A stretch of 44,404 nt of DNA from a virus (IMGVR_UViG_3300017757_000024:1-44404), one strand, 5' to 3'; positions 7,305 through 27,258 are shown, numbered from the stretch's first letter. Numbers and translations: made by a program. The notes: generated by a model from the sequence alone, not told the origin.

Positions 7305-7805
7305 TTATGCAATATCCCTGTAAGTTATTAACACTTTCTTGTTAATAATCAGGTTTTTTACTATCATTTCGTATATACGCTTGTACGCTTGGGTTGATTT
7401 ACCTATAAAGCCATTCTTTATTAGCTGGTTGTTCTCTTGGCTGTCACCAACGAGTAAGCACCCTGCAGTGTGTTCATCAGTATTTCCACAATGAATGAGA
7501 ATATAATCAAACCCAGGAACGCTAGTAATATGGAGCATACCCCTGTGCATACTGCCAAATCTCTTAGTGTATTTTTGGTGGAAACCACCCACTGTTCGTA
7601 ACTTGATCTCGTAGGTACCTTCTGGTATGCGAGTCTCACCCATAACTTTTTCGTCTCTTTTTTCATCTTCTAATGTATAACATAAAAATTTTCTTTTACA
7701 CCTAAAACCTTCTCCATGTGGATTATTTGCAGTGTCATTCACCTCAAATAGCATGCCACTAGTAGAGTCTTGTTCACTTGATATTCTTAAAACTTCTAAT
7801 TTCAT
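7305..7805 (-). CDS. DUF5675-family protein, candidate endolysin
   Basis: 166 aa. The order of conserved blocks fits DUF5675: LEVLRISSEQDSTSGMLF at the N-terminus, LCYTLEDEKR, GETRIPEGTYEIKLR, GML-IT-VPGFDYILIHCGNT (His105, Cys106) and HTAGCLLVG (Cys116). The H-C-G-N and GC pair recalls the active-site layout of L,D-transpeptidase-like folds, although the fold is not proven here. In Bacteroidota phages this domain commonly occupies the lysin position, and no other free lysozyme or amidase gene is visible. Its start overlaps the giant gene's stop (ATGA). Role in peptidoglycan cleavage is inferred. Confidence 0.7.
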   Translation of the reverse strand: MKLEVLRISSEQDSTSGMLFEVNDTANNPHGEGFRCKRKFLCYTLEDEKRDEKVMGETRIPEGTYEIKLRTVGGFHQKYTKRFGSMHRGMLHITSVPGFDYILIHCGNTDEHTAGCLLVGDSQENNQLIKNGFIGKSTQAYKRIYEMIVKNLIINKKVLITYRDIA

Positions 7806-10800: not shown

Positions 10801-13800
10801 TAGAATTGTGAGCCTCTCCATTTATATTTGTAACTGTTGGCCCTGCAGACTTATCTATACTTGATGTAACATCTCTAATTACATCAGGTATTGTTTCGTT
10901 AAAGAATGTTTGTTTTGGTCCATCAAAATTTTGACCTGGCTTAAACGCTAGTCCATCAAAACCCAAGTCAGATGAGTACCTTACAAGCCTTCTAACTATT
11001 GGCTCTATGTTAGATGACATTTCATTATCAGGTGCTACAACATCTTCTACTAACATTATACTATTACCATCCTCATCTATTTTTTTAGTGTACCTTACAT
11101 TACCCAGGTCATATAAAGGATTAGATATTTTTATTTCACTATCGCTTATTTCTTCAACCTTTGTTTTGTTCAATGTTATATAATCCTCTAAGGCCTCTTT
11201 TGGTATTAAGTCATCAGCGTATAGTCTCTCTGCTGATTCTAGGAAATTATTCATTCCTAAGAACTTTAAGTCCTCAACTATATTTTCATCACCAACCATT
11301 TTTAAATTATCCATCCATTGTTTTGGGGTACCCCTATTAATGGTGGAGTGCTTGACTGCGTCTAAAGCATTTGAATGGTTTGATTCATCTATTTGAAAAG
11401 TAGGTTTTCCATCAACGTCTTCACTTCTGTAATCTTCATCTATATTTATTTCCTTTCCTTTAGGTATGGTAGATTGGAATCTGTTTTTAACATCCTCTAT
11501 ATTGCTCATGTCCTCTATAGAAATCTTTAATGGATTTTTATTAACATTAACTCCAAAGAACTCTAATATTTTTTTAGCAAACTCTTTTGCTTTATTCAGT
11601 GCTGTTTGATCGTTTTTAAATTGGTCAAGACCAGCATCACCTAAATACTCAGCTAAGGCCTCCTCAACAGCGTCATCTGTATTATAACTTCCATCCTCGT
11701 TTCTTACAGACATTACACCAAACTCCATATAGGTAGTGTCTCTATTTGGCCTTTTTTGAGTTTCTAATGTTTTAGATATATCATTCCACAATTTAGTTAT
11801 AGGACCCTTTCCCTTTTCTGCCTGCATTGCCCTCTTTATTATTTGTACAAATGGGTGAGCTGCCTCATGAAAAACAGTGTTACCAGATGCCTTATCTAGA
11901 TTAATATGTATCTCTCCATCACCCATTAATATAAAGCCTTTACTATTCATTTTAGCATAAGCCTCTTGTCTAGTCATACCAGACTTTCTTAAATCATTGT
12001 ACATGCTGTCACTATCATTATGTACAATTACATCTAGACCTAATGGCCCAAGAATCTTATCAATCATTTTAAGAACAGTTGCCTTTCTTTTATTCGCTGC
12101 ACCACCTGCAGCTTTATGAGTAGCTGCTCTTTTCTTTAAATCTTTTCTATCTTCTTTATTATTCTTATATCTATCTCCCTTTTTATTAGTTTGTTTTTTC
12201 TCTATCTCTTTGCCTTTTTTCTCAGCTTCTTTTCTGTAGTTTTCCTGTGCCTCCTTTTCTGCTTCTATTTGTGACTCTTCCTCTATAATAGCATCAACCT
12301 CAGCCATATCTATCACAGATGTATCTTTTTTGGATAACATTTCGTTTATTAAATTTTCTGTAGCTACATCTGTAAGTATATCAGGGTCATTTAATAGATT
12401 GACACCCTTAATGTTAGATACTTCATTATTAAATTCAGACTGTGTAATTTCTCCATTGTCTAATTTCTTCTTTAATCTTTTAAATTTATTTTTAGCAATT
12501 TTTGATTGCCTATCTGTTAGGTTTGGATCTGTTACAACCATAGACTCTAGGTCCCCATCTTCGTTTTTAATCATACCAACAATATCTTGTTTTGGGTTAT
12601 TGTTAACAGATATTTTACCCTCAGGGTTTATAGTAAATGATGATCCTGTAGCCTTTATTCCATGGGTTTTTAGTATTTGGTTTTGAGTTGCTGACCCCTT
12701 TTTGTTCCTTACAACAAAGTCTCCTTTAGGTGTCTTAACCACTATGTTACCATCAGAGTCTCTCTGTAATACTCCTTGCTTACCTTTATAGGTAACATTT
12801 TTACCTATTACATCTTTTATTTTAGAACTATCGTTAATAGGTGTTATTTGTTTGGAAGTTGTTCCATCAGCCTCTCTAATACTCTTAACTTCACTGTCTT
12901 TGGGAGCTCGTTTAGTCTCACTCTCAATCCCAGGGGCAGATTTTCCTGATTCTTCTCTAATTGTGTCCTTGATGTGTTTCTCAAGGTCTGGGTCTGTTTC
13001 TTCATTTATTGTAGGTTTTATTTGTTGAACTTCATTTAATAATTCTTTATGCAAAGAGAGTAATCTACTTTCTTCTTTTGTTTTGTTTTCTATTTTTTCT
13101 AATCTATCTACCTCTAGCTTTAGTCCTCTAACAGTGTTTTTATACTCCTCAGTTCCCCACTCTTTTTTATTATTTCTATGTCTAATTACATTTTTAGATG
13201 CTGGAGACATGTTCTCAGGACTAACCCCTAAGTCTCCAAATTCACTTGGTTCAGCCATTACATCTGCAACACTTTCTCCATTTAGTAGCCTTTCTAATTT
13301 TCCATCTATATCAGATATAGTGTCTTTTACTCGTTTTTGAATTTTAGGATCTTTATGACCTTGAAACGCCTCTAAGTGTTGTTTATGCTCAAGGAGATTC
13401 ATAATATGTAATTTCTGCCCATCTTTTAGGTCTTTATCTGATGTAGCTATTAAATTATCTGTTTGTTGGAATAGGTTTTTAAACTTATCTTTAATCTCAG
13501 CTGCCTTCTCTTTTGTTAATTCTATTGTGTTACCTTCCCAGTAAAAGTTTTTAGTTCCAACTAGGTTATCTAAAGAGTTAAAGAAAACATCTTGATTTTC
13601 ATAACCATAAAATAAAGCCTCTTGTTGTAATCTACTTTTAAACCCTTTAAACCTCATTTCAGTTGTCCCACTAGCACCACCTAGTGCTGCCCCTATAGTA
13701 AAAGAATCTTTGTACTCATTCCAATTTCTGGTTAAATCAAAATCTCTACCATCTTGAGTGTAATTGTAACCAGCATTAATTAATCTTGCGACCTCTAACT

Positions 13801-16800
13801 CTGCTACTTCTTGTAATCCCTCAGTACCAGCATTTCTTGCTATTACGCTAGTATTATATTTAAAAGAGTTAAAAAGTGCTCTACGACCACTAACTAAGGA
13901 TAGGTTTTTCCAGGCTGTAGTATATTTTTTTGGATCAAGCCAAGTACTGAAACCTTTACCAAAACCTATATTTGGGTTAATTAATTGAGTAAGACTAACA
14001 ATCATAGTTTGTGCTCTCGCATAATCATCAGCCTCTGCAAGATTCCCACCAATATCATCTAAATAAGCACGTCTAAATTCACCATATTGCTTAACATTAT
14101 ATGACCCCATCATGGTTCCTTTAAATAGCCAATTTTTTGCTTTTTTAGTTTTTCCAAGTGCAGAAACCCTTCCTGCTAACAATATATCAGCAGCTAATCC
14201 CATTCCACTTTGCCCTAAAGAGTTCCACCAAGCATAATTGTTGTCATCTAATTCTACATTGTATTTACTAGGGTCTTGTGAAAATTTTTGAATAAGATGT
14301 TGAGCAATAGGACTGCTCATTGGGACTAATACGTCATCTGATGTCATAACCTGTATTGGAGTTACTCCATCTTCACTCAACACAATTTTAAAGTCTTTAT
14401 CAAAATCATTCTTATGAATACCATCTGGAGTTGTTCTTCCCTCTTCTGAATCTGATGTTATGTTTACAAATTGAAACTCGCTTCCTAGTTTTAATATAGA
14501 TGGAGTCATTAATATTGAATCATAATCTTTAGTAAATTGCCAGGTATCTGACATAGCATCTGTCCAGTCGTATTCAGCGTCATTAGTAAATACACCTTTC
14601 ATCCAGTTTGGGGTATCAGCAAATATATTTCCAAGATCTCTTTCCATGCCCTCAACCCACCTAAGGGCTCCCCATAACTGCCCATCAGAATAGGCTTTGT
14701 CCCATGCTATCTGTTGTTTTTCCACACCTTTCATAAAGTTTCCCCACAACATATTTCTGTCCATTAGTTTTGATCTCCATTGTGATCCTGCATTATAAGT
14801 CTCCATTATTCCTGAATACTGCTTAATAATATCTCGTTCATGAAAGTCACCACGCTGTTTTAACAATGGAACATATATATCTTCATTAAAACTTTGTATT
14901 TGTGTAACTAGCTTATTATAATCCTCTATCTGCATGTCAGTCATGTTCTCAGTATCAGGAATCATCATTCCATCTGAGTCTAGTTTGGTTGGAAACTTTG
15001 AAAGCATATCAATTTGCTTATTAATCCAATCATCAGCAACTATTATTTGCTCCCCAAGAGTTTCTGCCTCTTTCATTATACCTGTCTTCTCTAAGGTTTT
15101 ATCCATAGAATTTAATGCATTATTCATAGATCCTGCGAAATACTCATACGCCCTAGTCTCTAAATTAGTTCTATACATTGAACCTTGTATTTGTAGTTTT
15201 TCCTCAGTCATACCACCAAGGCCAACACCAGAATCAAAAGCTAAAACAGTGGGGTCCCCTGAAAAATATTTCCACCTAATATAATCCATATCAGTTATAT
15301 TGCCCTTACTATCTCTAGGAAGTGTGGCTATAAATTTCTCCATCATGTACGAGCCAACAGCCAGTTGGTCTGCCTCATCTTTACTTACCACTTTCTGTAG
15401 AGGATTAAAAGATGGGTCAGTGGCACTAACTCCATAATCCCCATCGAATTGCTCTGGAGCCTCTTCTTCTTGTTTAGTAATATATTTCCTTGTTGCAACC
15501 CCCTCTCTATACAGTGTTCCAGAATCCATTGGGTTATCTACATGGGTAACAGTAAAATCATAAGAACCTTGTGATAAATAATTTTTAAACTCCTCATCAC
15601 CTTTCCAGAATGTTTTGCTTTCATTAAAATTACCATCCAAATCAGACAACTCACCATTTTTATTTAGAACCACATTAAAACCATCTCTTTCATGATTTAA
15701 TATTTCACTAAGCTCTTCTGTTATAATGGGGGGAAGGCCCTCTTCTTGTCTCAATTTATTTATTTTATACAGTGAGTTAAATTCATTTTCTGTATTTAAA
15801 TCCCAGGTAGTTACGACTTGAGTTTGTTGTAACTCTTGATTTTTAATATTTAAATCTTCTTTACTTTTTGATTCTTCTAGGGTTTCTAGTCTGTAGTTGT
15901 TGTTTCCTTCTAAAAAATCTTCTGTTAAAGCATCAGGATTTTCATGAAATAGTTCAATCAATTCTGCGTCCATGCCATCATTAGCTAATAATGGGTTTAC
16001 TCCATCTTCTCCTTCAGTAAGTATTGCTCCTGATGGGGTGTATAGATATTGCATTTTTCCACCAGCAGCGTCTTTTCCAATATACGCCCAACCTCTTGAT
16101 AAGGCTTCTGAATATTTTTTTCTTAGCTTAACATCACTTATTCTAACACCCCCAATAAACTCTCCACTGGCACTATAAGATCCTGTAAGTTTAGAATTAA
16201 TTTCATCTCCTAAATATGGAAAATCATATCTCCTTGAATATATTTTAGCAAACTCAGGGTTATTGGCTATATAATCAGGTAACTCCTCTTCACCAGGTAT
16301 ATTCAAATAATCTATGTTATCCATTATATCAGGATCCTCTTCAATCATTTTGATTAACTCCTTTTTGGTTATAATTTCATCGTCTGAGATAGCTATATAT
16401 TGATCGCCTGTTTCCATATTTTTTGTTTTGGCTAACTCCTCTCTTTTTACTGTCTCAATGTAATTAGGATTGTTTTGGTAGTCATCTCCCCAAACTTTTG
16501 CTGGATTAAAACCAATGCTACCACCCTTGTAATATTGCCATGGTATATTATCTAACATGGTTAAGGCGTGATTCTGTAGGTTCTCTGGAGACGTGCCATC
16601 AGCATTTGGGTTATTAAATAATATTTCATTTTTTATTAAATCATATCCTAGTATTTTTTCTTCTAAACTTTCTACAGATGAGTCATCACCCTTATCTTGA
16701 CTACTTTTGATTTTAATATTTTTAGCTTTAGGGTACTTATCTAAAATAGTATTAGCCTCACTAGTTTTCCCTTCAGCTAATAACCTTCTATAGTTTGTTG

Positions 16801-18427
16801 CGTCTATATCAGTCATATAGTCCCATGGTTGCATAGCTACAGCTTGGGGTTTGTATTCCTCATCTGTTTGCTGACCTGAATCAGGGACAGGTACGTTGTC
16901 TTGTTTTGTTTGGGGTTCAATATTTTCTGGTTCCTGTTGGGTTTGTGGGGCATATCCTCCTTCTGAGTATTTTCTAACTATACCACCTCTTCTAAATATA
17001 TCTTTGTATATTTTTTTATTTTCTTGTCTTTGTTTTATTTTTTTATCGCTTTTATCTTTAGGGTTTTCCCACTTTATCATAAAGTCTTCAGTAATTGCAT
17101 CTACATCATCCAAGCCTTCTGTTCTTGTTATAAAATCATCAGTCTCCTTTTCTGTTATCATATAATCAATCTGATATTTCCAATTATCTGGGTCTCTCCA
17201 GTCTAAATTTCTTTCATTAAAATATTCTAAAAATCCAGCTTTTCTGGTGCTATAAGTGTGTTGAAATAATCCAAGCCCAGGGTTGTAATAAGCTGTTTTA
17301 ATTTCTCCAGTTTCTTCATCCTCGTATTCATACGTTTCATTTTCATCCATCTCTATAAATCTAGACCCCCCAAAATCTGATACTTTCCTTCTTTGTATTG
17401 CTCCAACCTCAAATCCTGACTCAGCCATAATATTGTTTATTATTGCTCTAGCCTGTGCATCAGTAAAATTGTGACCAATTATATTCCCATTTTCATCTTC
17501 TTTTTCATTGTCTATTAAATAGTTATAAACATCTTCAGGGTCAACTGTTGCCATTGGAAGGTCAACTTTATTTACTTTATATTTTTCATTTATATCTTTA
17601 TGTTTCTCATACTCTATGTAATTCAGTGGATGGGTAGATCCCTTAGTTACAAAAAACTCTTCTTTTGTTCTTGCTTCGTATATAATTTGATTTTCTTCAA
17701 GACTTTTTGTGTTATCATAATCAAGCCCCCATTTCTCCATTTCTACTTTAAAGGAAGCGATTTCAATAAGATTACTGTTTTCTTGCTCTATTTTTTCGTC
17801 TTCTATTTTTTTCTTACGATCCTCTATTGTAATTTCCATTTCCTCGATAGACATTCCATCATGGATTTGAGCACCTATACTTTCTGCCTCTTCATATAGG
17901 GCCTCAATTTTTTCCTGTTTTTCTTTTCTTTCTAATTCTAATCTTTCTTCTTCTTCTTTTTGTTTTCTAATCTCTTCTTCTTTTTGTTCTCTAATCTCTC
18001 TTTCCTCTTCTGTTTCTATAGTTTGAGGATCGTATTCTTCCCCTTCTTCTGGTTCTTCTGGTTCTTCTTCAATTATTTCTTCCTCATCACTATCACTTTC
18101 GTTCTCCTCTTCTATTAAATCATCTTCGTTATCATCTTCAGACTCTCCTAATATTTCATCTAATTTTTTTAGGATCTCAGGGTCATTTGTGGTGATTACC
18201 TCTTCCCCATTTTTTATTTTTTCTATGTATCCAGGTATTTCTAGTAGTATTAATAACTCCTCTTTTGATGTGGGTATTCCATTTATTTCGTATTCACCTG
18301 TATATTCTGGTGTGTCATATATACTTACTTCCTTATCTTTTTCTTCTGACTCAATATTTGGATCAACAATCTCTTGAGATTCCCCATCGCCAGTTTCCCC
18401 ATCTGATGTACCATCGTCCACATCCAA
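7802..18427 (-). CDS. Giant ejected virion protein (polyvalent; lysozyme, zincin motif, LPD38-like)
   Basis: This open frame encodes 3541 aa from the ATG at 18427, but it very probably continues upstream by a -1 frameshift into the frame starting at 18663, giving about 3620 aa. Numbers here are for the 3541-aa frame. An acidic coiled-coil region (about 100-185) is followed by a phage tail-lysozyme-like domain (about 305-460) with MAESGF and Glu336. A Lys/Glu-rich stretch near 2060-2130 precedes a zincin-like segment with HEAAH (2187-2191) and a downstream EEALAEYLGD that could give the third ligand. A TPKQWMDNL domain (near 2365) follows, then an LPD38-like C-terminal region (NPVTHVRNF near 2985; hydrophobic GTIINLVAMPTL near 3195). 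Such polyvalent proteins are packaged and ejected with DNA to cross the envelope. No RNA polymerase DxDGD-type motif was found. Confidence 0.85.
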   Translation of the reverse strand: MDVDDGTSDGETGDGESQEIVDPNIESEEKDKEVSIYDTPEYTGEYEINGIPTSKEELLILLEIPGYIEKIKNGEEVITTNDPEILKKLDEILGESEDDNEDDLIEEENESDSDEEEIIEEEPEEPEEGEEYDPQTIETEEEREIREQKEEEIRKQKEEEERLELERKEKQEKIEALYEEAESIGAQIHDGMSIEEMEITIEDRKKKIEDEKIEQENSNLIEIASFKVEMEKWGLDYDNTKSLEENQIIYEARTKEEFFVTKGSTHPLNYIEYEKHKDINEKYKVNKVDLPMATVDPEDVYNYLIDNEKEDENGNIIGHNFTDAQARAIINNIMAESGFEVGAIQRRKVSDFGGSRFIEMDENETYEYEDEETGEIKTAYYNPGLGLFQHTYSTRKAGFLEYFNERNLDWRDPDNWKYQIDYMITEKETDDFITRTEGLDDVDAITEDFMIKWENPKDKSDKKIKQRQENKKIYKDIFRRGGIVRKYSEGGYAPQTQQEPENIEPQTKQDNVPVPDSGQQTDEEYKPQAVAMQPWDYMTDIDATNYRRLLAEGKTSEANTILDKYPKAKNIKIKSSQDKGDDSSVESLEEKILGYDLIKNEILFNNPNADGTSPENLQNHALTMLDNIPWQYYKGGSIGFNPAKVWGDDYQNNPNYIETVKREELAKTKNMETGDQYIAISDDEIITKKELIKMIEEDPDIMDNIDYLNIPGEEELPDYIANNPEFAKIYSRRYDFPYLGDEINSKLTGSYSASGEFIGGVRISDVKLRKKYSEALSRGWAYIGKDAAGGKMQYLYTPSGAILTEGEDGVNPLLANDGMDAELIELFHENPDALTEDFLEGNNNYRLETLEESKSKEDLNIKNQELQQTQVVTTWDLNTENEFNSLYKINKLRQEEGLPPIITEELSEILNHERDGFNVVLNKNGELSDLDGNFNESKTFWKGDEEFKNYLSQGSYDFTVTHVDNPMDSGTLYREGVATRKYITKQEEEAPEQFDGDYGVSATDPSFNPLQKVVSKDEADQLAVGSYMMEKFIATLPRDSKGNITDMDYIRWKYFSGDPTVLAFDSGVGLGGMTEEKLQIQGSMYRTNLETRAYEYFAGSMNNALNSMDKTLEKTGIMKEAETLGEQIIVADDWINKQIDMLSKFPTKLDSDGMMIPDTENMTDMQIEDYNKLVTQIQSFNEDIYVPLLKQRGDFHERDIIKQYSGIMETYNAGSQWRSKLMDRNMLWGNFMKGVEKQQIAWDKAYSDGQLWGALRWVEGMERDLGNIFADTPNWMKGVFTNDAEYDWTDAMSDTWQFTKDYDSILMTPSILKLGSEFQFVNITSDSEEGRTTPDGIHKNDFDKDFKIVLSEDGVTPIQVMTSDDVLVPMSSPIAQHLIQKFSQDPSKYNVELDDNNYAWWNSLGQSGMGLAADILLAGRVSALGKTKKAKNWLFKGTMMGSYNVKQYGEFRRAYLDDIGGNLAEADDYARAQTMIVSLTQLINPNIGFGKGFSTWLDPKKYTTAWKNLSLVSGRRALFNSFKYNTSVIARNAGTEGLQEVAELEVARLINAGYNYTQDGRDFDLTRNWNEYKDSFTIGAALGGASGTTEMRFKGFKSRLQQEALFYGYENQDVFFNSLDNLVGTKNFYWEGNTIELTKEKAAEIKDKFKNLFQQTDNLIATSDKDLKDGQKLHIMNLLEHKQHLEAFQGHKDPKIQKRVKDTISDIDGKLERLLNGESVADVMAEPSEFGDLGVSPENMSPASKNVIRHRNNKKEWGTEEYKNTVRGLKLEVDRLEKIENKTKEESRLLSLHKELLNEVQQIKPTINEETDPDLEKHIKDTIREESGKSAPGIESETKRAPKDSEVKSIREADGTTSKQITPINDSSKIKDVIGKNVTYKGKQGVLQRDSDGNIVVKTPKGDFVVRNKKGSATQNQILKTHGIKATGSSFTINPEGKISVNNNPKQDIVGMIKNEDGDLESMVVTDPNLTDRQSKIAKNKFKRLKKKLDNGEITQSEFNNEVSNIKGVNLLNDPDILTDVATENLINEMLSKKDTSVIDMAEVDAIIEEESQIEAEKEAQENYRKEAEKKGKEIEKKQTNKKGDRYKNNKEDRKDLKKRAATHKAAGGAANKRKATVLKMIDKILGPLGLDVIVHNDSDSMYNDLRKSGMTRQEAYAKMNSKGFILMGDGEIHINLDKASGNTVFHEAAHPFVQIIKRAMQAEKGKGPITKLWNDISKTLETQKRPNRDTTYMEFGVMSVRNEDGSYNTDDAVEEALAEYLGDAGLDQFKNDQTALNKAKEFAKKILEFFGVNVNKNPLKISIEDMSNIEDVKNRFQSTIPKGKEINIDEDYRSEDVDGKPTFQIDESNHSNALDAVKHSTINRGTPKQWMDNLKMVGDENIVEDLKFLGMNNFLESAERLYADDLIPKEALEDYITLNKTKVEEISDSEIKISNPLYDLGNVRYTKKIDEDGNSIMLVEDVVAPDNEMSSNIEPIVRRLVRYSSDLGFDGLAFKPGQNFDGPKQTFFNETIPDVIRDVTSSIDKSAGPTVTNINGEAHNSIDITNKVKAASTRINLPSFQVDEGIDPDMEYVHQMYNGKVSFATDFIQKWLTPSGPGGFDAYNRQREMLGRRKAKIEAVKAAQETLQKAIDNNDTFTLEQVNDALTDPATLITSLKNEISILQSQIDNLSKGMTDEQVSSFNPLRIRQSKINEINSRIKELRDNHRGKTKVKNLESDPELADAVRNAREMIDALSQSLINQGVVQGELAGTVLANKSIYLMKQYRAHHDMDYVKKQMNAIEMAKEAGEGEFYNSATTIGRVTTFVRNQLQEKYDRELEQYNNKQIDTKPKKVTMNMVQQEVLEVFRSGNNSTVYNRAVHINKPSNKIFKKRKDMPEEIVEFLGEIENPSWNFAHTAEQMINSVELTTYRNDVVKTLMAAGNGKFIIEGIPTTPDLQKKLTETIEVDGKTYSVTKDIYAQIEGAQRNTNTALKFYMKFLGYTKLGLTVYNPVTHVRNFTANVGFAVMNGHINFSTLKNTTDAWSIATNIFRKSSNAKQSALWESMIEEGMIDETVGLEEIKDLLRSDGSERSFFESINKTANKSVLGKIQRGVEGAYRFEDVVWKVTGFLQEMQTAEKAGMSRQEAIKRAGYVIRNTYPNYSAVPLLAKKLRVNPLVGSFVSFPAEVIRTSMMTIKIAKGELASGNPVLVKRGAARMTGTIINLVAMPTLTKLAVSGIMSLVGFDDEENYSLDKKIAEALKFIGAPWNEFGTLVPISNPEGGVWYSWNIHDNLSHGFLYDIANSIFNPPEDDPTKDRNFIMGLFGGSPVLSALFDPFLGTDVLAGAVEEAITGVDSNGQRIYPENTSDYNKIYSMFGHILYEVRPGVAKTIERFFDPDASLKHEVIGTFAGIRFGETNVGQAAYYRTQDVMNNIRGLDPKYEGDPELIKKELIRNLKYLEKLYYLSKVLGLEEQEINIFAEPPRKTTPVEDDPNTPLDETMLEFEASRTTMENARLSQAIIDILERRDKSVPIEQLDWDIWLKKVLSESQLQEYNELLEK

Positions 18428-18663
18428 AGAATCGTCTGAATCGCCTGAATCGACTTTTTTTTTAAACCATAAGTGGTTATTATCGTTTCAAGTTTGTTGT
18501 CTTCTAGTTCAGACTGTGCGTATTTTGCATACAGGTCTCTTAGCAGGGTGTCATAATCATCACCATAAGTGTCTTTTATGGTTTGAATTTTATCATCGCT
18601 TATATCTTGATTTGCATACTTTGCGTAAAAGTCTTTTAATAATATGTCTAATTCATCTCCCAT
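18325..18663 (-). CDS. Frame-0 start of the giant protein (short form 112 aa)
   Basis: Residues 1-70 contain two copies of a ~35-aa repeat: DELDILLKDFYAKYA with DDKIQTIKDTYG, then DYDTLLRDLYAKYA with DNKLETIITTYG. After YGLKKK at the A9 run, the remaining 40 residues are a low-sense Ile/Gln/Trp/Met/Lys mix. The -1 frame reads acidic sequence (VDSGDSDDSLDVDD) that runs unbroken into the giant frame. The combined length 18663-7802 with one base read twice is 3621 codons including stop. The start overlaps the upstream stop as TAATG. Most likely this is the N-terminus of the giant protein, with the 112-aa chain a by-product; a sequencing error in the homopolymer is the alternative. Confidence 0.7.
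   Translation of the reverse strand: MGDELDILLKDFYAKYANQDISDDKIQTIKDTYGDDYDTLLRDLYAKYAQSELEDNKLETIITTYGLKKKSIQAIQTILWMWTMVHQMGKLAMGNLKRLLIQILSQKKKIRK
18455..18463 (-). other. Programmed -1 frameshift site (A AAA AAG in an A9 run)
   Basis: On the coding strand the codons are TTA AAA AAA AAG TCG in frame 0. This contains the heptamer A AAA AAG, identical to the slippery site of E. coli dnaX, and A9 is also long enough for RNA polymerase slippage. Slipping back one base joins the N-terminal repeats to the giant frame. No Shine-Dalgarno-like stimulator or strong downstream hairpin was seen; a weak GATTC/GAATC pairing with a ~50-nt loop is the only candidate. Confidence 0.6.
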
Positions 18664-20492
18664 TATAGTACGTCTCCTTTATCTGATATTTCATAATCTA
18701 TGTCAGCGTCATCTCCACCTCCTGTTTCTTCATTTTCTTCTTCCCCTTCAGTGCCTCCTATAGAGCCATCAGTTATTTCTCCACTTCTTAACTCTTCAGT
18801 TTTTCTTTTTGCTAATTCATCCATAGCTTCTGTTTTTTGGAAATTAGAAGACTTCTCACTAAAGTCTCCTTGTATTTGTGACCTAGCTTTATCAAGTGGC
18901 ATAATTGCTTTAATTGTACCTGTATCAGTTAATCCCTTTCCTTGCCAATTAGATTCCATGTCTCCATCTGTTGCATGGAATGTTACCTGAACAGCAGGTC
19001 TATACTCACATTTTGCGTAAGCCTCTGGATTATCAGTTTTTAAAGCCTCTTCTTCTTTTTTAGTTAAGAATTTTCCTTGGTCAGGGTCCCATAAACAAAG
19101 ATAAGCATCATGGTAGGTTATCTCTAAATCCCTTCCTAGCCCATCTATATCATACTCCCCACTTCTAAATAAATCATCACCCCCAAGTAAGGTAATTTCA
19201 TCAGGACTAAATGTAGCCTGTGTTATTTGACCCTCTTCTTTACCTCCATGCTCTATAGTAAACATCCCTTCATAAGCTATTGCATTATCCTCTCCCATTT
19301 CATAAGTTGGATTATCAGCATCACCACCTACATTAATGCTATAAGTAGATAATTCTCCTGTGTGGTTATGGTCACTCATACGAGATATTAACTCTGACAT
19401 ATCAAATCCTCCCCCTGAGCCATCTCCATCAACTCCATCATATCCCATAACATTTTGTATTACGTAATCTATTATTTGGTCTTTTGTGATAGAGCCCTCT
19501 TTAAAGTTTCCTGATGGATCGTTTCTCATCATGTTTATAATAGGAGCTGCATTAGCAGTTAGAACACTACCCTCTGGGTCCTCTGGATTGTACATATCTG
19601 TTGCACCAAATATAGCCCCATGAAGATTAGTATAAGTAGTTTTGTAATTTTTATTATCTTTATTAATCACACCACCATCATCTATAAAAGAAGAGTCTGG
19701 AGTAATAAGGTCAGAAAAAGTTTCAGGATTCCAATCATTTGCTGATGCATTTTTTTTCAATTTATCTTTACCTATTCCTAATTTATCATAATACTCATCT
19801 AAGGTTATCATCTTTTCTACCTCTTGGTCTGCAGTAGCTTGTACTGGATTTCCATCATTATCTAATTTAGCGTCATCTTTATTTGTGGTTGTTCCATCTC
19901 CTGATTCTGTTACATATAAAGCGTTTCCATTCTCATCTTTTTGTGGTACCTTTTCTGTATCTGTTATGATTGCCATTAATCTACCATCTTGATTATAAGC
20001 AGGTTTAAAACCTTTCATCCATTCTCCCTTAGCATTTTCTAGTGCCTGTAAATTATCTTGATTGTAATATATAGAGTCTTTGTCTCCAAGTAAGTCTAGT
20101 GCAGCATCATAATCGTTTTGAAACCTTGTTTGAAAAGATTTAAACGCCCCTGCTGTTCCATCTAAAGTATTTTTAAGTCTGTGTGCGTTAGCACAAGGAC
20201 TTCCTGGAGGACAGTTTTCCATATCACCTGGGTTCATACTAAGATATGGTGCCATTGAATAAACATGGTTATAATAATCTTGACTAAGATCTTGTAATTG
20301 TTCTTGAAAATAAGGGTTATCACTGCCCCAATCAGCCATTTTCCAATCAAATGGTTTTAATGCATCTTTCTTTTTTGATTCTAACTCTTTCCTTGCTTGC
20401 TCTTTTTTTTGTAAATCAAGCGATAGCCATCCTTGAGCCTCTTGTACGAGGTTCCTTTTACTCATTAAATCTGAAACATCTGCTACTGGCAT
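18663..20492 (-). CDS. Internal virion / ejected cargo protein, 609 aa
   Basis: 609 aa, acidic, not recognised as a known family. The N-terminus is helical and charged (LQKKEQARKELESKKKDALK), followed by FQEQLQDLSQDYYNHVYS. A Cys pair CPPGSPC lies near 94-100. The middle and C-terminal thirds contain many short Gly/Asp-rich turns, and the tail is strongly acidic (EGEEENEETGGGDDADIDYE). It lies between the 347-aa and giant proteins, the position of the second internal or cargo protein in podoviruses. Its stop overlaps the next start (TAATG), so its synthesis is coupled to the giant protein. Role inferred from position. Confidence 0.6.
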   Translation of the reverse strand: MPVADVSDLMSKRNLVQEAQGWLSLDLQKKEQARKELESKKKDALKPFDWKMADWGSDNPYFQEQLQDLSQDYYNHVYSMAPYLSMNPGDMENCPPGSPCANAHRLKNTLDGTAGAFKSFQTRFQNDYDAALDLLGDKDSIYYNQDNLQALENAKGEWMKGFKPAYNQDGRLMAIITDTEKVPQKDENGNALYVTESGDGTTTNKDDAKLDNDGNPVQATADQEVEKMITLDEYYDKLGIGKDKLKKNASANDWNPETFSDLITPDSSFIDDGGVINKDNKNYKTTYTNLHGAIFGATDMYNPEDPEGSVLTANAAPIINMMRNDPSGNFKEGSITKDQIIDYVIQNVMGYDGVDGDGSGGGFDMSELISRMSDHNHTGELSTYSINVGGDADNPTYEMGEDNAIAYEGMFTIEHGGKEEGQITQATFSPDEITLLGGDDLFRSGEYDIDGLGRDLEITYHDAYLCLWDPDQGKFLTKKEEEALKTDNPEAYAKCEYRPAVQVTFHATDGDMESNWQGKGLTDTGTIKAIMPLDKARSQIQGDFSEKSSNFQKTEAMDELAKRKTEELRSGEITDGSIGGTEGEEENEETGGGDDADIDYEISDKGDVL

Positions 20493-20502
20493 AGACTATA
20501 TC

Positions 20503-21546
20503 TTAATTAAAAATTGAACTTCTTCTTTTACCATAATTAAATTTAGGTAATCTAGGTTTGTGAACAGATGCGTGAACTGCTCCTCTTTTAGCTTCTTTGT
20601 TATTATTTTCTTCAGCTTCTTTATCCCACTTAGTTAAAAGTTTGTCCATTAAATCAACAAGCCCCCTTCCATTTTTATCTTTTATTAAGTGTCTTATTTG
20701 TTTTACGTTCTTTGGTGGAACTATTGCCTCTCCACCTGTCATTTCTCCTATTTTTTCTGGCTGCCCTTCTTCATCTTGGTTTACTAAATCAATAGGATTC
20801 TTTTCATGTGAAAACTCTCCAGGCGTTACTTCAGGCTTATCTTTAGGCACTTCTTGTTCTTTCCCTCTTTGCTTTTGGGCCTCTTGCATTGCCCTTTGTT
20901 TTAATCTTTCTTTTAAACCTTTTTTAACAACTGCTCCTTCTCTTCCAAACATGCCTCCCATAGCTAAACCAAGTCCTGCATCTACACCCCCTGCTATTTG
21001 CTGTCTGGATGCCTCTAAATTTCTTTGACCAGCCATAACATCTGACCTTCCCTCTCCTCTTTCTTTCTCTGCTTGACTTATAGCTGCAATCTCTCTTGAT
21101 TCTTGCATGGTTCTAAGGTTAGACCTTTCTTGTGCACCAGCACGCAACCCTTGTTGCACAGCTTGTGTTTGTGCTTGTGCTAATTGACCCTCTTGTTGTG
21201 CACCTGCTTGTGCAGCAGCAAATGGATCCACTCTTGAACCACCTCTAGTAGCAGCACCTAAAGCTGCAGCTCTGGTTCTTTCTGCTGCCTCTTGTCTTCT
21301 GTTTATCTCTGTTCCCCCCAGTCCCTCTTTCATTTTTTGCACCTCAGGACTCATGGTAAGAGCTTGTTGGTTTCCTACAAGAGCCTCTCTCTGTGCTTTA
21401 GCTGCGTCCATCTCTCCAGTAGCAGTCTCTATAGCAGCTTTAGATCTTTTCTTGCCACCAAATCCAGCTATTAGTCCACCTATAAAGTATTTAGCTTTAT
21501 GTAATCCTTTAAGTTTTTTTGTTTTTTTTCTTTTATTTCTAGCCAT
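20503..21546 (-). CDS. Ala/Gln-rich internal virion protein
   Basis: 347 aa. A basic N-terminus (RNKRKKTKKLKGLHKAK) precedes a long Ala/Gln/Arg/Glu helical region (about 40-190), then a Gly-rich segment DAGLGLAMGGMFG. The C-terminal region has KIGEMTGGEAIVPPKNVKQI, a motif common in phage internal and tape-like structural proteins, and ends in a basic tail. The layout resembles small internal virion proteins such as the T7 gp14 or P22 gp7 class, which form part of the ejection conduit. It is first in the cluster of three internal proteins. The call rests on composition, motif and position. Confidence 0.65.
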   Translation of the reverse strand: MARNKRKKTKKLKGLHKAKYFIGGLIAGFGGKKRSKAAIETATGEMDAAKAQREALVGNQQALTMSPEVQKMKEGLGGTEINRRQEAAERTRAAALGAATRGGSRVDPFAAAQAGAQQEGQLAQAQTQAVQQGLRAGAQERSNLRTMQESREIAAISQAEKERGEGRSDVMAGQRNLEASRQQIAGGVDAGLGLAMGGMFGREGAVVKKGLKERLKQRAMQEAQKQRGKEQEVPKDKPEVTPGEFSHEKNPIDLVNQDEEGQPEKIGEMTGGEAIVPPKNVKQIRHLIKDKNGRGLVDLMDKLLTKWDKEAEENNNKEAKRGAVHASVHKPRLPKFNYGKRRSSIFN

Positions 21547-21573: not shown

Positions 21574-24500
21574 TTATTTATTGCTAAGTTCACTCTTGTT
21601 TACATTTGCATTTATAGCAAATATATGCACTTTATCTTTTGTTCTTTTAGTTAACTCAGTATCCATGAAGTGACCCTTTATTCTGTCACCCTCTATTTGG
21701 GCTGTTTTCTTAACAAACATAAAGGTATTTGCGAGTGATGTAGAGGCACTTGCTGTTAAAACTATATCATCATTGTCTGTTATTGCACTTATAACCCCTA
21801 TCAATGTTTCTGTTCCACTGTTGTCATAAAAGATAGAGTCACCTACATTAATTCCAGCAGTAGTAAAAGTTGTATTAGTTGAGTCACCAGAACCATCTGC
21901 TAAAGTATTCCCCCTAAGTGCTGTTGATGAATTATTAGTAGAACAGTTACCTAAACCAAAATACTCACCACCAACAGTGTTAGTAGTTCCATAAGGTATT
22001 TTAACGCTACCTATGTCCTCTCTCATTACCCATGACCCTGCAACCTGAGAGTTACCTGTTTGACTGTCATTATTATAAGACGTTCTATGTGTAACTTGAG
22101 TATCATTTATATTGGTAGCCATTTTTGTTAGATACATAGTTTTATTAGTGGTTAATATAAAGGAGCCTGCTAGTGCTGTGTCTGAAACTAGGGAGTTGGC
22201 TGCTAAAGTTATTGACGTATCGTTAGTAACTGTAGCCACAGTACCTATAGTTCCTAAGGAGTTATTAGAAGTGTAATAATATAAAGTATCCCCTACTTCA
22301 ATATCATTATTTGTAAATGTAGTTCCTGTTCCTGTTACAGTTGTACTGCCTGTTCCAACAGATATAGATGTACCCTTGATTGGTATAACTTCCTGTCTAT
22401 CAATACCTTCTATAGATACGTTATTCCAACCTTTAACACTAGAAACATCACCATTAAATGCGAATCCTAATTTCATTTCTTCTGGGTATGGGTTGTCATA
22501 AAATAAACAATGGTTATTTGAGTCCATGTCATGCTTATATAAATTGCCCCATTTAAAACTTATAAATGTTCTATGTAGTTTACCATAATAATCAGGATAA
22601 TAAGTATAAAAACTAGACCACCTATTATTTTTTTCATTAAATCCAATAGTAACTCCTTCTATTAAAACTTCTTGACCATTATCTTTTACCCTTAAAGTTA
22701 CATCATCATTATATACAGCATCAGTTCTTTTATCCTTAAATACATTGGCCTCAAAGTTTTGTGATAAGGAATTAAAATTAACTGCACATCTATTAAATTT
22801 ATTTTTCTTTTGATCTTCTGTCCCTGTAGTTATAGCATAAACATCAGGGAAGGTTACAACATATTCTCCATGCCTAGGGTCGTACCCACCTAATATTTTT
22901 AATGGACCATTAAGTTTTTCATTGTAAGCATCTTCAGTTATAGCCTGATACTCATCCATCTTATCCCTAAAGAAGTCAATCATTTTATAATCAGATATAG
23001 CAGTTATACCATCTCCACCTATTCTTAATACAGAACCTCTTTTTATATCGCAAAAATAAACTGTCTTTCCATATACTGCCACAGACTCTGGATTAGTTGA
23101 TACGCCCCAATCCCCTGCTAGTGGTTGAGCAGTATTAGATAAAACATTTTTAGACAACGTAATACCTGCATCTCCTGATGGTGATGTTATAATATCTTTT
23201 CCAACAAGAACTTTACTTACCTTATCTTCTTGTAGTACAAGTAAATCTGTATCTCTGGAAATTAATTTTTGTATAGCACCTTGATTTAAATCGTAGTCCA
23301 TATAAGGTCTTTGACTAAATGGAAAAGAGTGAAACCCATTATACTTAGTGTCTGGTTGAAAAACGTCAGAATAAGTAATAGTTGCCTCTCTTCTTTGCTC
23401 AACAGCATTAGGGCTATATAAATGAGGCCTACCTATGTTGTTGTGATTTGTTTGCATGAAGTCATTTAAGAAATAACTTTCATAGTATCCAATTATATTT
23501 GTAGAAGTGTTACCCTCATCTATAGATCTAGTTTTTCTTGGTTTAAACCAAATGTCACCTCTTTTAAATATACCTGTTGCAGGAACAGTAGATTGATCTA
23601 TACCATCTGCCACACTGTAACCAGTAGGGTCTTGGTTCTGTGTAGAGCCTTGGTGGTACCTAGTTTCTAGTCCTTTATTTCCTATTGCGTATCTTTCAGA
23701 AAATTCATAATAAATAACTTGGTCTGGGTTTGTGTTTTTCTTTGGTCTATATATTTCTATAATACACCCACTCCAATTAGCTATTTCTCCTTGACCTGCT
23801 TCTGTTGTGTTAGCACTAGAGACATCCATTCCTGATATTCCTTGGTCATCTATAACTAAAAATTTACCATGCTTTCCTTTTTGTGGATTACCTTGTGTTC
23901 CACCAACAGGTGATGTAATAGATGCTCTTATCTTATTAGAGACATTATCACCACTTTCACCACCATCATCACTTGTTGAGTCTGTGTCATAATCAAATCT
24001 AGTTGGGAAACTACCTACATCACTTAATTTAAAATCATAATACCTTTGAGTAGTAGTATCATCTGGGTCTGCCATAACAGAGCCACTATTATTTGTAATA
24101 ACCCTCATCCTATCACCTTCAGCAAAGCTCCAGTCTCCAATCAACGATCTATTTTTTTCACTATAACTCCATACTCTACCATCCATGGTATTTAAAGATA
24201 TATATATCTTAGTATCTGCATCTGAGTCTGCAGCAGAGGTCCCTGGCTTTGCACCCATATTAATATATGCTTTGTCTACAGTGAATTGCATAAACTTTCC
24301 AACAGAAGTATTTCTAGCATATACCCAGTGATAATATCTAGACCATATAGGTGGTTTGTGATATACCTTCCAGCCTATTCTTCCTGGAACTAATTTTTGG
24401 TCATTTGTTAGCTCTGTTGAACTTATACCATCTAAACTTTCTATAAATTTTTTCTCAGGTGGGAATTTAATATATACAGATGACGATCTACTTGGGTCAG

Positions 24501-27258
24501 ATTTATTACCCTCTTCTAGCAATACAGTAGAGCTTCTACCTTTTCCATCATAATAAACTAAACCAAACCTATGCCAAGATCCAGATTTAAATCCACTTGC
24601 TTTTTGAGAATAGTCTATTGTTGAGTCAAAACTTATATTTGTATCCTCAAAGTCAGACCATGGGGTTTCTGTACCTATTATAATATCTGTACCAGAACCT
24701 GTTGTTACAAGGCCATTCTCTGTATTATTAGGTGTAACATATTCAAGAGTATCTTTGCATTTATCTCCCATTTCGTAACAACCCCTAGAGTTAACACCAC
24801 CCCCAGTGAATTGACCACAACTACCTGCACCACAATTAGTTGCATCCATAAAGTCCCCATCTCTGTACCAAACGTGCAAATTAGTTGTTGTAGTCCCATC
24901 TAACATTGTGTAAGATGTACAACCATTACAAGACGCAAAATCATTGTCAGGCAAAGTGGTTGAGTCCTCATTATTTTGTTGTCCTTCGTTGCAACCTCCA
25001 TTTGCAGTATCTTGGCCATATGGGGAAAATACTATTTCTAATTTATTGTTATCAAATACAGTTGCACTAACAAACCTCATCTCAGCAGCTTTTTGTTCAT
25101 CACTACCAAGGTAAGATTGATTACCACTTGCATCCTCTCTATATAGGTGGTTTAAAGATAAGCCTACATTTTCATTAAAATCTTCAGAGTCTGGGTTATT
25201 ATTTCCTGTGTTATCCACATAGGTGCCTGCACAAACTGCTTGTATGTCTGTAATAAAACTATTTAATAATGTTGACACACCACCAGCAGTCACTTCTTTT
25301 TTTAAGTTTATTTGTGCTCCAAAATACTCATAGGTGTTATATGGACCCCATGAATCTCCCCAATCTTCATGAGGCCAAAAAGACACTATACCAGGTAAAA
25401 GGATAGGCCCCCATTTAACTTTATATTTTACCCTAAAATTAAATTTTAAAAAAAATGTTTGACCAACCTCAACCTCTGTGGGGAAGGTATAAGTAACTTT
25501 ACTTTGTGCTGCGTCTGCGTTCCAACATAAAGCAGCATCTGGGGTTAAATCATCATTGTTATTGTTTGTAACAGACTCAGTAATAAAATGTTCTATAGTT
25601 GGTGCTGAACCAATATTTTCTTCAGATATTCCTAACTCATCCATTTGGTCTGTGGTTATATCTCCACCACCAAAATCATATGTGGCCCCACCTTGAGAAT
25701 TACCTGTAGGACTAATAACTATAGGGTCTGTGGCTCCACCATATAGAGAAACTAAATCAAACTTTACAGGAACTCCATTAAAGCCATCAATATAGTTACC
25801 ATAAGATATTCTATTTTCTGCTATAATATCTTGTGCCTTTGCTCTTTTTGGAACCCTGTCATATAGTTTATTAAATTCAACAGGATCAACTGCAGTGTAT
25901 ACACCATCATTTCTAAAGTCTATATATCCTAAAGGAGTAGCACTGTAATCAACACTACCTGTAGTCATACTCTTAATGTATGGTACATTTTCAGTTGTTA
26001 CGTTATTGTACTCATACTGAGCTTCACCTATACCAGCATAGTCATCGTCAGCAAAAGTATAATTAGCATCATAATAATTATTATCAACAGATGCTATTAA
26101 ATAGTATTCTCCTTTGTTTCCTTCATCTGGAGCTGTTTCTATATAAGAACATTTTCTGGCCACAATCTCTATTTTACTTACATCTGCTGGCCCATTCCAG
26201 TACCATACTCTAAGTTGGTTATATTGTCTTTGTTTTTCCTTATTTATGTCGTTGCTATAGTAAGTAGGGTTTGGTAGGGTATAGCTCCACTCAGAATATG
26301 ATCCTACCTCATTGTCTTTATAAACATATCTATATGCAAACTGCCAAACAAATCCATATAAATTATTTTTCTTATAAGCTATCTCTAAACCACTTGTACT
26401 CTCTATTGTATCCACAGAAACATTATTAGTAGAAATAGTATTTGCAGCTAAATTAAATGTAGATGATTCCCCATTTAATGTAGTAAATGGTATACTTGAT
26501 ATTTGAGCATTTGTTATATTTTTAACAGGTGTCTGATGAAAGTATATTGGTGGATTAGGTCTTTTCTTGCAAACATCAACATAAAGCCTTTTTCTCCAAG
26601 CAGGAACAAGTGCGTTGTTTGGATTGTTATCCATACTACTTACATAAAACTCATATGGGTATTGAGTATCTATATTAAATGCTGTCCCAGGTGTTCCAAG
26701 GGAATAGTCACCACCATCATAGTAAACTGTAAATCCAGCCTTGCCTTTTTCTACATTAATATATTTTGGCTCATTATGAGTAGTCTCTCCTGTGTCTGAT
26801 AAAAATGTATTATCACATGTCCAGTATAATAAATCACCAATTTTGTTTACTCCAGTTATTAAAGTAGTTTTATCAAAGTTTAATACACCTTGATATGGAA
26901 GACCAGTATCTCTAAAGACAGTTGATATAGTCTCTGTATTGTTGTTATACTCTAGTATCATATGGAAGTTTTTTTCGTTCCATATAAAATAATATAAACA
27001 GTTATTTGGAGAGTCCTCATAAGATCCTATAACTCTATATTCAGCAGTGTCGCTACCAAAAGCTCCTTCTCTTCCTCCAAAAATTCTATTGTAAGCGTGT
27101 TTTTGAGTGCCCCTTATGTTCTCTACAAGCATTGTATTTCTACCCTCAGAAGATAATACCCTAATGTTTTGTGCATTATGATAATCCCCATTAGGGACAA
27201 TTCTTGAGTCATCATCTCTGTTTAACCCACCTGTAAAATTTCTTTTATCCTGAGTCAT
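21574..27258 (-). CDS. Muzzle / tail-hub protein (crAss-like, 1894 aa)
   Basis: 1894 aa. The N-terminus KRNFTGGLNRDDDSRIVPNGDY and the following NAQNIRVLSS match the start of the large tail-tip or stabilisation proteins of crAss-like and related podoviruses. The end IKGHFMDTELT...VHIFAINANVNKSELSNK is the typical C-terminus of that family. Most of the chain is beta-rich. A Cys-rich segment lies at about 756-839 (CNGC, NCGAGSC, GCYEMGDKC). Near the C-terminus are two copies of a short beta domain (about 1628-1701 and 1771-1848) with the pattern V/INVGD...IG-I/V---T/D--I-LTA. It should form the distal nozzle of the short tail. Downstream it is followed by the ejected proteins that would pass through it. 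Confidence 0.75.
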   Translation of the reverse strand: MTQDKRNFTGGLNRDDDSRIVPNGDYHNAQNIRVLSSEGRNTMLVENIRGTQKHAYNRIFGGREGAFGSDTAEYRVIGSYEDSPNNCLYYFIWNEKNFHMILEYNNNTETISTVFRDTGLPYQGVLNFDKTTLITGVNKIGDLLYWTCDNTFLSDTGETTHNEPKYINVEKGKAGFTVYYDGGDYSLGTPGTAFNIDTQYPYEFYVSSMDNNPNNALVPAWRKRLYVDVCKKRPNPPIYFHQTPVKNITNAQISSIPFTTLNGESSTFNLAANTISTNNVSVDTIESTSGLEIAYKKNNLYGFVWQFAYRYVYKDNEVGSYSEWSYTLPNPTYYSNDINKEKQRQYNQLRVWYWNGPADVSKIEIVARKCSYIETAPDEGNKGEYYLIASVDNNYYDANYTFADDDYAGIGEAQYEYNNVTTENVPYIKSMTTGSVDYSATPLGYIDFRNDGVYTAVDPVEFNKLYDRVPKRAKAQDIIAENRISYGNYIDGFNGVPVKFDLVSLYGGATDPIVISPTGNSQGGATYDFGGGDITTDQMDELGISEENIGSAPTIEHFITESVTNNNNDDLTPDAALCWNADAAQSKVTYTFPTEVEVGQTFFLKFNFRVKYKVKWGPILLPGIVSFWPHEDWGDSWGPYNTYEYFGAQINLKKEVTAGGVSTLLNSFITDIQAVCAGTYVDNTGNNNPDSEDFNENVGLSLNHLYREDASGNQSYLGSDEQKAAEMRFVSATVFDNNKLEIVFSPYGQDTANGGCNEGQQNNEDSTTLPDNDFASCNGCTSYTMLDGTTTTNLHVWYRDGDFMDATNCGAGSCGQFTGGGVNSRGCYEMGDKCKDTLEYVTPNNTENGLVTTGSGTDIIIGTETPWSDFEDTNISFDSTIDYSQKASGFKSGSWHRFGLVYYDGKGRSSTVLLEEGNKSDPSRSSSVYIKFPPEKKFIESLDGISSTELTNDQKLVPGRIGWKVYHKPPIWSRYYHWVYARNTSVGKFMQFTVDKAYINMGAKPGTSAADSDADTKIYISLNTMDGRVWSYSEKNRSLIGDWSFAEGDRMRVITNNSGSVMADPDDTTTQRYYDFKLSDVGSFPTRFDYDTDSTSDDGGESGDNVSNKIRASITSPVGGTQGNPQKGKHGKFLVIDDQGISGMDVSSANTTEAGQGEIANWSGCIIEIYRPKKNTNPDQVIYYEFSERYAIGNKGLETRYHQGSTQNQDPTGYSVADGIDQSTVPATGIFKRGDIWFKPRKTRSIDEGNTSTNIIGYYESYFLNDFMQTNHNNIGRPHLYSPNAVEQRREATITYSDVFQPDTKYNGFHSFPFSQRPYMDYDLNQGAIQKLISRDTDLLVLQEDKVSKVLVGKDIITSPSGDAGITLSKNVLSNTAQPLAGDWGVSTNPESVAVYGKTVYFCDIKRGSVLRIGGDGITAISDYKMIDFFRDKMDEYQAITEDAYNEKLNGPLKILGGYDPRHGEYVVTFPDVYAITTGTEDQKKNKFNRCAVNFNSLSQNFEANVFKDKRTDAVYNDDVTLRVKDNGQEVLIEGVTIGFNEKNNRWSSFYTYYPDYYGKLHRTFISFKWGNLYKHDMDSNNHCLFYDNPYPEEMKLGFAFNGDVSSVKGWNNVSIEGIDRQEVIPIKGTSISVGTGSTTVTGTGTTFTNNDIEVGDTLYYYTSNNSLGTIGTVATVTNDTSITLAANSLVSDTALAGSFILTTNKTMYLTKMATNINDTQVTHRTSYNNDSQTGNSQVAGSWVMREDIGSVKIPYGTTNTVGGEYFGLGNCSTNNSSTALRGNTLADGSGDSTNTTFTTAGINVGDSIFYDNSGTETLIGVISAITDNDDIVLTASASTSLANTFMFVKKTAQIEGDRIKGHFMDTELTKRTKDKVHIFAINANVNKSELSNK

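Follow-up and report, generated by a model that had tools for sequence, protein, structure and literature searches.

A candidate programmed slippage site in the giant virion protein gene of marine Bacteroidota podoviruses, with a conserved overlapping frame behind the A-run

The IMG/VR contig IMGVR_UViG_3300017757_000024, analysed here over its whole length of 44,404 nucleotides (nt) and called the window below, carries on its minus strand a run of nine A's at which the frame of a short N-terminal domain (N-domain) meets the frame of a giant virion protein (Table 1). The strand reads GGT TTA AAA AAA AAG TCG around this tract. The nine A's in TTA AAA AAA AAG TCG had been pointed out in a preliminary description of the window and were recovered here, as were the frame with two YAKYA/TYG repeats, which encodes 112 amino acids (aa) and ends at 18325, and the frame lying -1 to it that stays open for about 3.5 thousand codons. 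The ATG which that description placed at 18427 is a TTG, and no in-frame ATG occurs in the giant frame until approximately 190 codons farther downstream. Joined together, the N-domain and the giant frame amount to about 3,620 aa, and the giant frame encodes an acidic Ser/Gly/Glu linker, a phage tail lysozyme domain (PF18013, residues 316-475) and a virion-protein region (phrog_22602, residues 2675-3238). The continuation of the N-domain frame behind the unslipped A9 is not consistently conserved among relatives.

Table 1. Features of the window around the A-run and in the adjoining virion module.
Feature	Coordinates	Strand	Remarks
N-terminal domain common to all proposed products	18464..18663	-	ATG 18663; two repeats of ~30 aa, DFYAKYA..TYG and DLYAKYA..TYG; ends YGL before the A-run
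A9 tract (putative slippage site)	18455..18463	-	A10 in most relatives, A9-A12 overall
Hidden overlapping tail, -1 to giant frame	18366..18455	-	SRFRRFRRFFGCGRWYIRWGNWRWGISRDC; stop TGA 18363-18365; open 30 codons
Giant frame	7802..18487	-	Open from 18487; 3,541 codons from TTG 18427; stop at 7802
Unslipped-A9 continuation of N-domain frame	18325..18454	-	KSIQAIQTILWMWTM...; stop 18325-18327; +1 to giant frame
Upstream 609-aa virion-module gene	18663..20492	-	Relatives in G002, G003, G004, G007; used to locate the homologous junction
347-aa virion-module gene	20503..21546	-	Gene order same in relatives
Muzzle protein	21574..27258	-	PF25731 crAss_MUZ, phrog_14478; anchor for collecting 80 related contigs

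Neither the 609-aa gene nor the giant N-terminus matched any annotated phage in DNA and protein searches, and the muzzle gene was therefore taken as an anchor, by which alone 80 related contigs were gathered. The giant N-terminus likewise found no match in 13 genome records, because the region is too divergent. The preliminary description had proposed aligning relatives as a check on the A-run, and a tract of A9-A12 was kept at the homologous place in 55 of the 80 contigs, 30-105 codons into the giant gene, much more often than chance would allow; it was absent in about ten to eleven related loci with enough sequence, and the remaining contigs end before the site. Across 48 non-redundant loci the run was A10 in 36, A11 in six, A9 in five and A12 in one, and never shorter than nine. 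Seven of the nine giant genes read in the relatives' records carry the N-domain in a single frame through [L/V/Q]-KKK-[D/V/E] into the acidic linker, with a tract of A10 (A11 in contig L096), and an LDV(D/E)DGTSD-like motif found in the single frame of the closest relatives is carried by the window in its -1 frame. The isolates and records phi38:1, Calle_1, Gundel_1, MW202828 and elemo (elemoA) also have A10 or A11 and a single frame; among them, Gundel_1 and Calle_1, both with A10, were sequenced by Illumina (PMC8776804). An A9 with the N-domain and the giant part in different frames occurs in phi13:2, phi18:3, phi19:3, phi46:3, Panino and contig L127, and in the five isolates among these the parts are annotated as separate genes or the first domain is missing. 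Judged from the relatives, which carry both parts as one open frame through the same [LV]-KKK-[DVE] junction, the two frames of the window encode one predicted giant protein, as the preliminary description had proposed, and because A10 relatives have both parts in one frame, the window, with its A9, lacks one A relative to the family.

All 48 non-redundant loci, on which the tests of the hidden tail were made, have an open stretch of 19-50 codons after the tract in the frame -1 to the giant frame. Shuffling the giant codons in place gave a mean open length of 10.0 (standard deviation 1.26; observed z 20.7), and random positions in the same giant genes gave a median of 5. Between the nearest upstream stop and the tract, the -1 frame contains no ATG, GTG or TTG in any of the 48 loci, so the tract is the only way into the tail; an independent start for the tail was ruled out on this ground. 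Mismatch rates at giant codon positions 1/2/3 were 0.269/0.342/0.304 in the overlap, 0.279/0.217/0.485 in the 150 nt after the -1 stop and 0.237/0.180/0.500 far downstream. Disjoint pairs gave 0.19/0.24/0.20, 0.29/0.23/0.49 and 0.25/0.20/0.46 for the same three regions (overlap versus far, Fisher p = 1e-14, a somewhat generous value because some disjoint pairs have near-identical partners in other pairs). Substitution in the overlap is thus fastest at giant position 2, a pattern that stops at the -1 stop codon; this position is the wobble position of the -1 frame, which places the -1 peptide under purifying selection. Nine giant genes that lack the run, taken as a negative control, seldom had an open -1 stretch of this kind. 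Comparison of the aligned loci demonstrates coding selection on this predicted tail, which is reachable by the tract alone.

Across families the -1 frame encodes the motif KKKR...FGxGFxG...SGxRTRxxxFGF or shorter forms of it; the tail of the window is conserved with those of L099-L108, and the phi38:1 tail peptide is ...GIPLKKKRKRRAFGIEFYLWSGSFKFGWFRL. All 48 tails are net basic and all 48 giant-frame images net acidic, a coupling that is partly a property of the genetic code. AlphaFold modelled the longest-tail group, which is the best sampled, with three strands and a predicted local distance difference test score (pLDDT) of ~79 over residues 11-40, and a Foldseek search with this model gave no significant match (best E 0.68). 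In the AlphaFold model of the short product proposed for the window, the tail is not confidently modelled, and the N-domain, which has a homologue in L101, forms four helices (H3-16, H23-33, H37-48 and H55-64; pLDDT 67-79).

The tract itself is under selection. Elsewhere in these phages, KKK is encoded by AAA throughout in only 3 of 165 cases, although AAA makes up 57% of Lys codons, whereas at the site it is all-AAA in 58 of 58 run-bearing loci (54 contigs, phi38:1, MW202828, phi19:3 and the window). The codon before AAA-AAA-AAA varies (TTA/GTA/CCA/TCA/CAA/GAA, for Leu/Val/Pro/Ser/Gln/Glu) but mostly ends in A, and the elemo phages keep A10 in another codon phase (GAA AAA AAA AAT), which encodes only KK. 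An unselected survey of KKK in the first 125 codons of all open reading frames of at least 900 aa yielded 55 cases, all but three of them all-AAA; the exceptions are two in other genes and one close to the start of the L122 frame, ahead of its tract. By these codon comparisons, selection on the A-run at the nucleotide level is evident. A pattern scan with the window context found one other phage, L192 (7697-7726), which is not of the same population and has the same core CACTTATGGTTT-A10-GTCGATTC; L192 and the window share this exact core although the surrounding sequence has diverged, which could be due to chance, recombination or strong constraint.

We consider it very probable, from the sequence evidence at hand, that the A-run is a programmed slippage site in a large clade of marine Bacteroidota podoviruses and that it yields, by RNA-polymerase slippage, both the giant virion protein and a hidden short protein. 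RNA polymerase would stutter on the run, and the mRNA pool would hold tracts with more or fewer A's. Transcripts with the N-domain in the giant frame (A10, or A9 with one A added) would be translated into a protein of ~1,700-3,700 aa composed of the N-domain, KKK, the acidic linker, and lysozyme and other domains. One further added A, equivalent to a -1 shift, would give a short protein of N-domain, KKK and a tail of 19-50 residues, predicted to be basic, aromatic and glycine-rich and, in the best-sampled group, to form a three-stranded beta sheet; for the window this product would measure ~99 aa. On A10, unslipped RNA would give the giant and one added A the short form; on A9, the giant would require one added A, and the short form the loss of one A or the gain of two. 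We infer the transcriptional nature of the slip, the product ratio and the role of the products. The N-domain presumably targets or docks both products in the virion, and their ratio presumably matters; as a guess, the short form controls the giant protein's stoichiometry or its docking there, and its basic tail perhaps pairs with the acidic linker, DNA or membrane. A wider proposal, to which we give a little less than even credence, is that the short protein is a functional virion or ejection partner with a fold existing only in the overlap, namely a basic, aromatic sheet of three strands joined to the N-domain, that polymerase slippage serves the whole clade as a switch by which one virion protein is made in ~100-aa and ~3,000-aa forms at a fixed ratio, and that the slip site is also the border of N-domain exchange.

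The preliminary description is partly borne out. It had taken the site for a dnaX-like -1 frameshift: that the A-run is a working slip site is upheld by all the sequence evidence, but 9-12 A's, no stimulatory RNA structure and the interchange of A9 and A10 favour transcriptional slippage, as in Thermus dnaX. Its proposal that the slip makes the giant protein, as in gpG/gpGT, does not hold for most relatives, in which the giant is the unslipped (A10) product and the slip would make the short form; a slip is needed for the giant only on A9 alleles (the window, Panino, Cellulophaga phi13:2/18:3/19:3/46:3 and L127) and not in A10 relatives. The N-domain-frame sequence behind A9, which it had called nonsense-like, exists and ends as described, but it is not the sole alternative to the giant: the one conserved in relatives is the third frame at 18455-18366, whose short product that description had missed.

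The same two products could come from -1 ribosomal frameshifting on A_AAA_AAA or A_AAA_AAG, of the Escherichia coli dnaX type, since one of these heptamers lies inside every tract and the conserved tail would be reached by a shift to -1, as is usual. For such a shift, however, seven A's would be enough and AAG would be tolerated or better, yet the run is never shorter than nine in the non-redundant loci, and on A9 alleles a -1 shift yields the giant protein and not the conserved tail. No downstream RNA structure that might act as a ribosomal stimulator was seen in the 48 loci, with pseudoknots left out of the folding (mean fold z -0.44 versus -0.22 in random windows; z below -2 in 6% versus 7%). 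Nine A's is also the length at which many bacterial genomes start to avoid such runs (PMC1088944). Transcriptional slippage is the likelier mechanism, because the run never falls below nine A's, downstream RNA structure is lacking and A9 and A10 alleles both occur, and we regard ribosomal shifting, the main rival, as unlikely. A contingency locus, where tract variation in the DNA switches the giant protein on and off, might be suggested by the presence of both A9 and A10, even with the same flanks (L127 and L170), but we find it very unlikely: the giant protein is a virion component, its phi18:3 product gp123 being recorded as detected by tandem mass spectrometry (MS/MS), so that a phage with it switched off should not be viable; in-frame A10 strongly predominates; and the -1 tail could be under coding selection only if it were expressed routinely. 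Least probable of all is that no slippage occurs and that KKK is kept for a protein reason, such as a cleavage or binding site, with the A-richness following from AT-rich codon use. Although KKK stands at a domain border in almost all members, this explanation is already contradicted by the avoidance of AAA-AAA-AAA in these phages elsewhere, by the elemo phages with only KK and yet the same A10, and by coding selection on the -1 frame behind the run, which in loci without the run is mostly closed.

The A9 of the window may be either a natural allele or an assembly error, and we give an even chance to its being a mere assembly or sequencing error for a true A10, in which case the giant protein would need no frameshift in the window phage. 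The family norm is A10 in one frame, the Illumina genomes of Gundel_1 and Calle_1 agree with it, L127 (A9) and L170 (A10) have identical flanking sequence, and one more A would let the window be read as GLKKK-VDSGDSDD without a change of frame. On the other side, four Cellulophaga isolates and the Maribacter phage Panino likewise have A9 with split frames; homopolymer miscalls may be present in these older Cellulophaga genomes, and if the A9 tracts are real, the phages must slip to produce the giant protein. L002, the nearest relative contig with 88% identity, starts only ~60 nt past the A-run and therefore gives no evidence on the window's own tract; assembly may tend to break at the tract, as at L002:1. 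An error in the window would leave the hidden -1 tail and the selection on the tract intact, and is compatible with polymerase slippage at this site.

Several observations weigh against programmed slippage here. The N-domain gene gp122 of phi18:3 is listed as hypothetical, whereas the giant gp123 was found by MS/MS. The site is missing from about ten assessable related loci and is therefore not essential to every member; it may have been lost, or never gained, in several lineages. The 58 loci were chosen by A>=9, so that 58 of 58 arises partly by selection and is not an unbiased rate, although the -1 openness and substitution tests are independent of this figure. Random control windows for the substitution pattern were noisy (position-2/3 ratio with mean 0.61 and maximum 1.49, versus 1.19 in the overlap), probably owing to poor alignment. 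The Arg/Phe/Gly composition of the tail is partly forced by the overlapping acidic Ser/Gly linker, whereas the substitution pattern is not. The +1 frame, too, is more open than codon shuffles in the 48 loci (z 7.0), with exceptions; this may simply follow from the hydrophilic nature of the giant frame, or it may reflect a third, weaker product.

Giant genes without KKK or an A-run were seen in L124, L151, L172, L144, L147-L149, L119 and L142, with L124 among those retaining the two N-terminal repeats. Neither crAss001 (first 50 kb) nor phi14:2 has such a tract at a coding position on the strand that encodes the giant genes. A common N-domain is present in phi13:2 (L186:6103-6366) and Gundel_1 (L193:29380-29530), unrelated to that of phi19:3 (L181:22475-22783), phi18:3 and phi46:3, and phi13:2 and phi19:3 have nearly identical giant parts despite their unrelated N-domains. 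The N-domain thus appears to have been swapped, the exchange ending at the A-run or immediately beside it. In Panino (L194:24512-24700, 24682), the annotation starts the giant gene at a GTG past the A9 run and places a minus-strand gene on top of the true N-domain; the Panino tail frame reads KRKFWGIRGRKWFIGFFRPEGGGWFFGI. The giant gene of phi46:3 is annotated as two pieces, gp120 and gp121 (L185:6358-10677, 10997-12877), unlike its relatives, which could indicate a second frame break, a gap or a sequencing error.

By its gene content, the window belongs to a Bacteroidota podovirus that is crAss-related and Pervagoviridae/Pachyviridae-like at the group level. Its muzzle (PF25731), portal and terminase genes are akin to those of Cellulophaga phi38:1 (Pervagoviridae), phi19:3 (Pachyviridae) and the Flavobacterium elemo phages, and the group markers PF25731, phrog_6547 and phrog_6681 occur in conserved order with the giant as the last gene and match Callevirus, Baltivirus and Elemovirus. 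The giant protein also contains HEAAH (window 11855-11869, minus strand; giant residues 2187-2191) followed by EEALAEYLGD, which hints at a zinc metallopeptidase domain in addition to the lysozyme.

No description of the site was found in the literature searched on crAss phages, Cellulophaga phages, slippage and ejection proteins, with subscription papers outside reach. If the proposed slippage is true, widespread aquatic phages make a conserved, unannotated protein that gene finders miss because it is made only through slippage. It would be a clear tailed-phage case of transcriptional slippage combined with dual coding, similar to potyvirus PIPO; for a giant ejection or cargo protein we know of no earlier one. 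It would also account for the missing first domain in the annotated giant genes of phi19:3, phi18:3, phi13:2, phi46:3 and Panino, and it cautions against simply polishing away A9/A10 differences in genomes of this kind.

Among known systems, dnaX of Thermus thermophilus undergoes transcriptional slippage on A9 (PMC1088944, PMC5009743) and resembles the phage site in having at least nine A's inside the coding sequence, with a long unslipped and a shorter slipped product that share their N-terminus. It is a cellular gene, however, with the run seven-eighths into the gene and stops close behind in both other frames, whereas the phage run lies near the gene start and one other frame carries a conserved tail of 19-50 codons. 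Potyvirus P3N-PIPO, made by transcriptional slippage at GA6 (PMC4552492), likewise has a conserved A-run, of a kind avoided elsewhere, where one added A opens a -1 overlap inside a much longer frame and fuses the N-terminal part to a new C-terminal tail in a short protein; it differs in belonging to a plant RNA virus that uses its own replicase, and the genes and proteins are unrelated. As in lambda gpG/gpGT and other tail assembly chaperone frameshifts (PMC5009743), two structural-module proteins would have a common N-terminus and a ratio set by the slip, but in gpG/gpGT the shift is ribosomal and yields the longer form, and the proteins are chaperones that leave the assembly; at the phage site, the shift would in most members lead to the short product, the long one being a giant virion protein of a podovirus. 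The capsid frameshifts of T7/T3 and kuraviruses (PMC5009743, PMC9965538) similarly produce a podovirus structural protein in two slip isoforms, although there the protein is that of the capsid, the shift is ribosomal and the -1 form is an extension.

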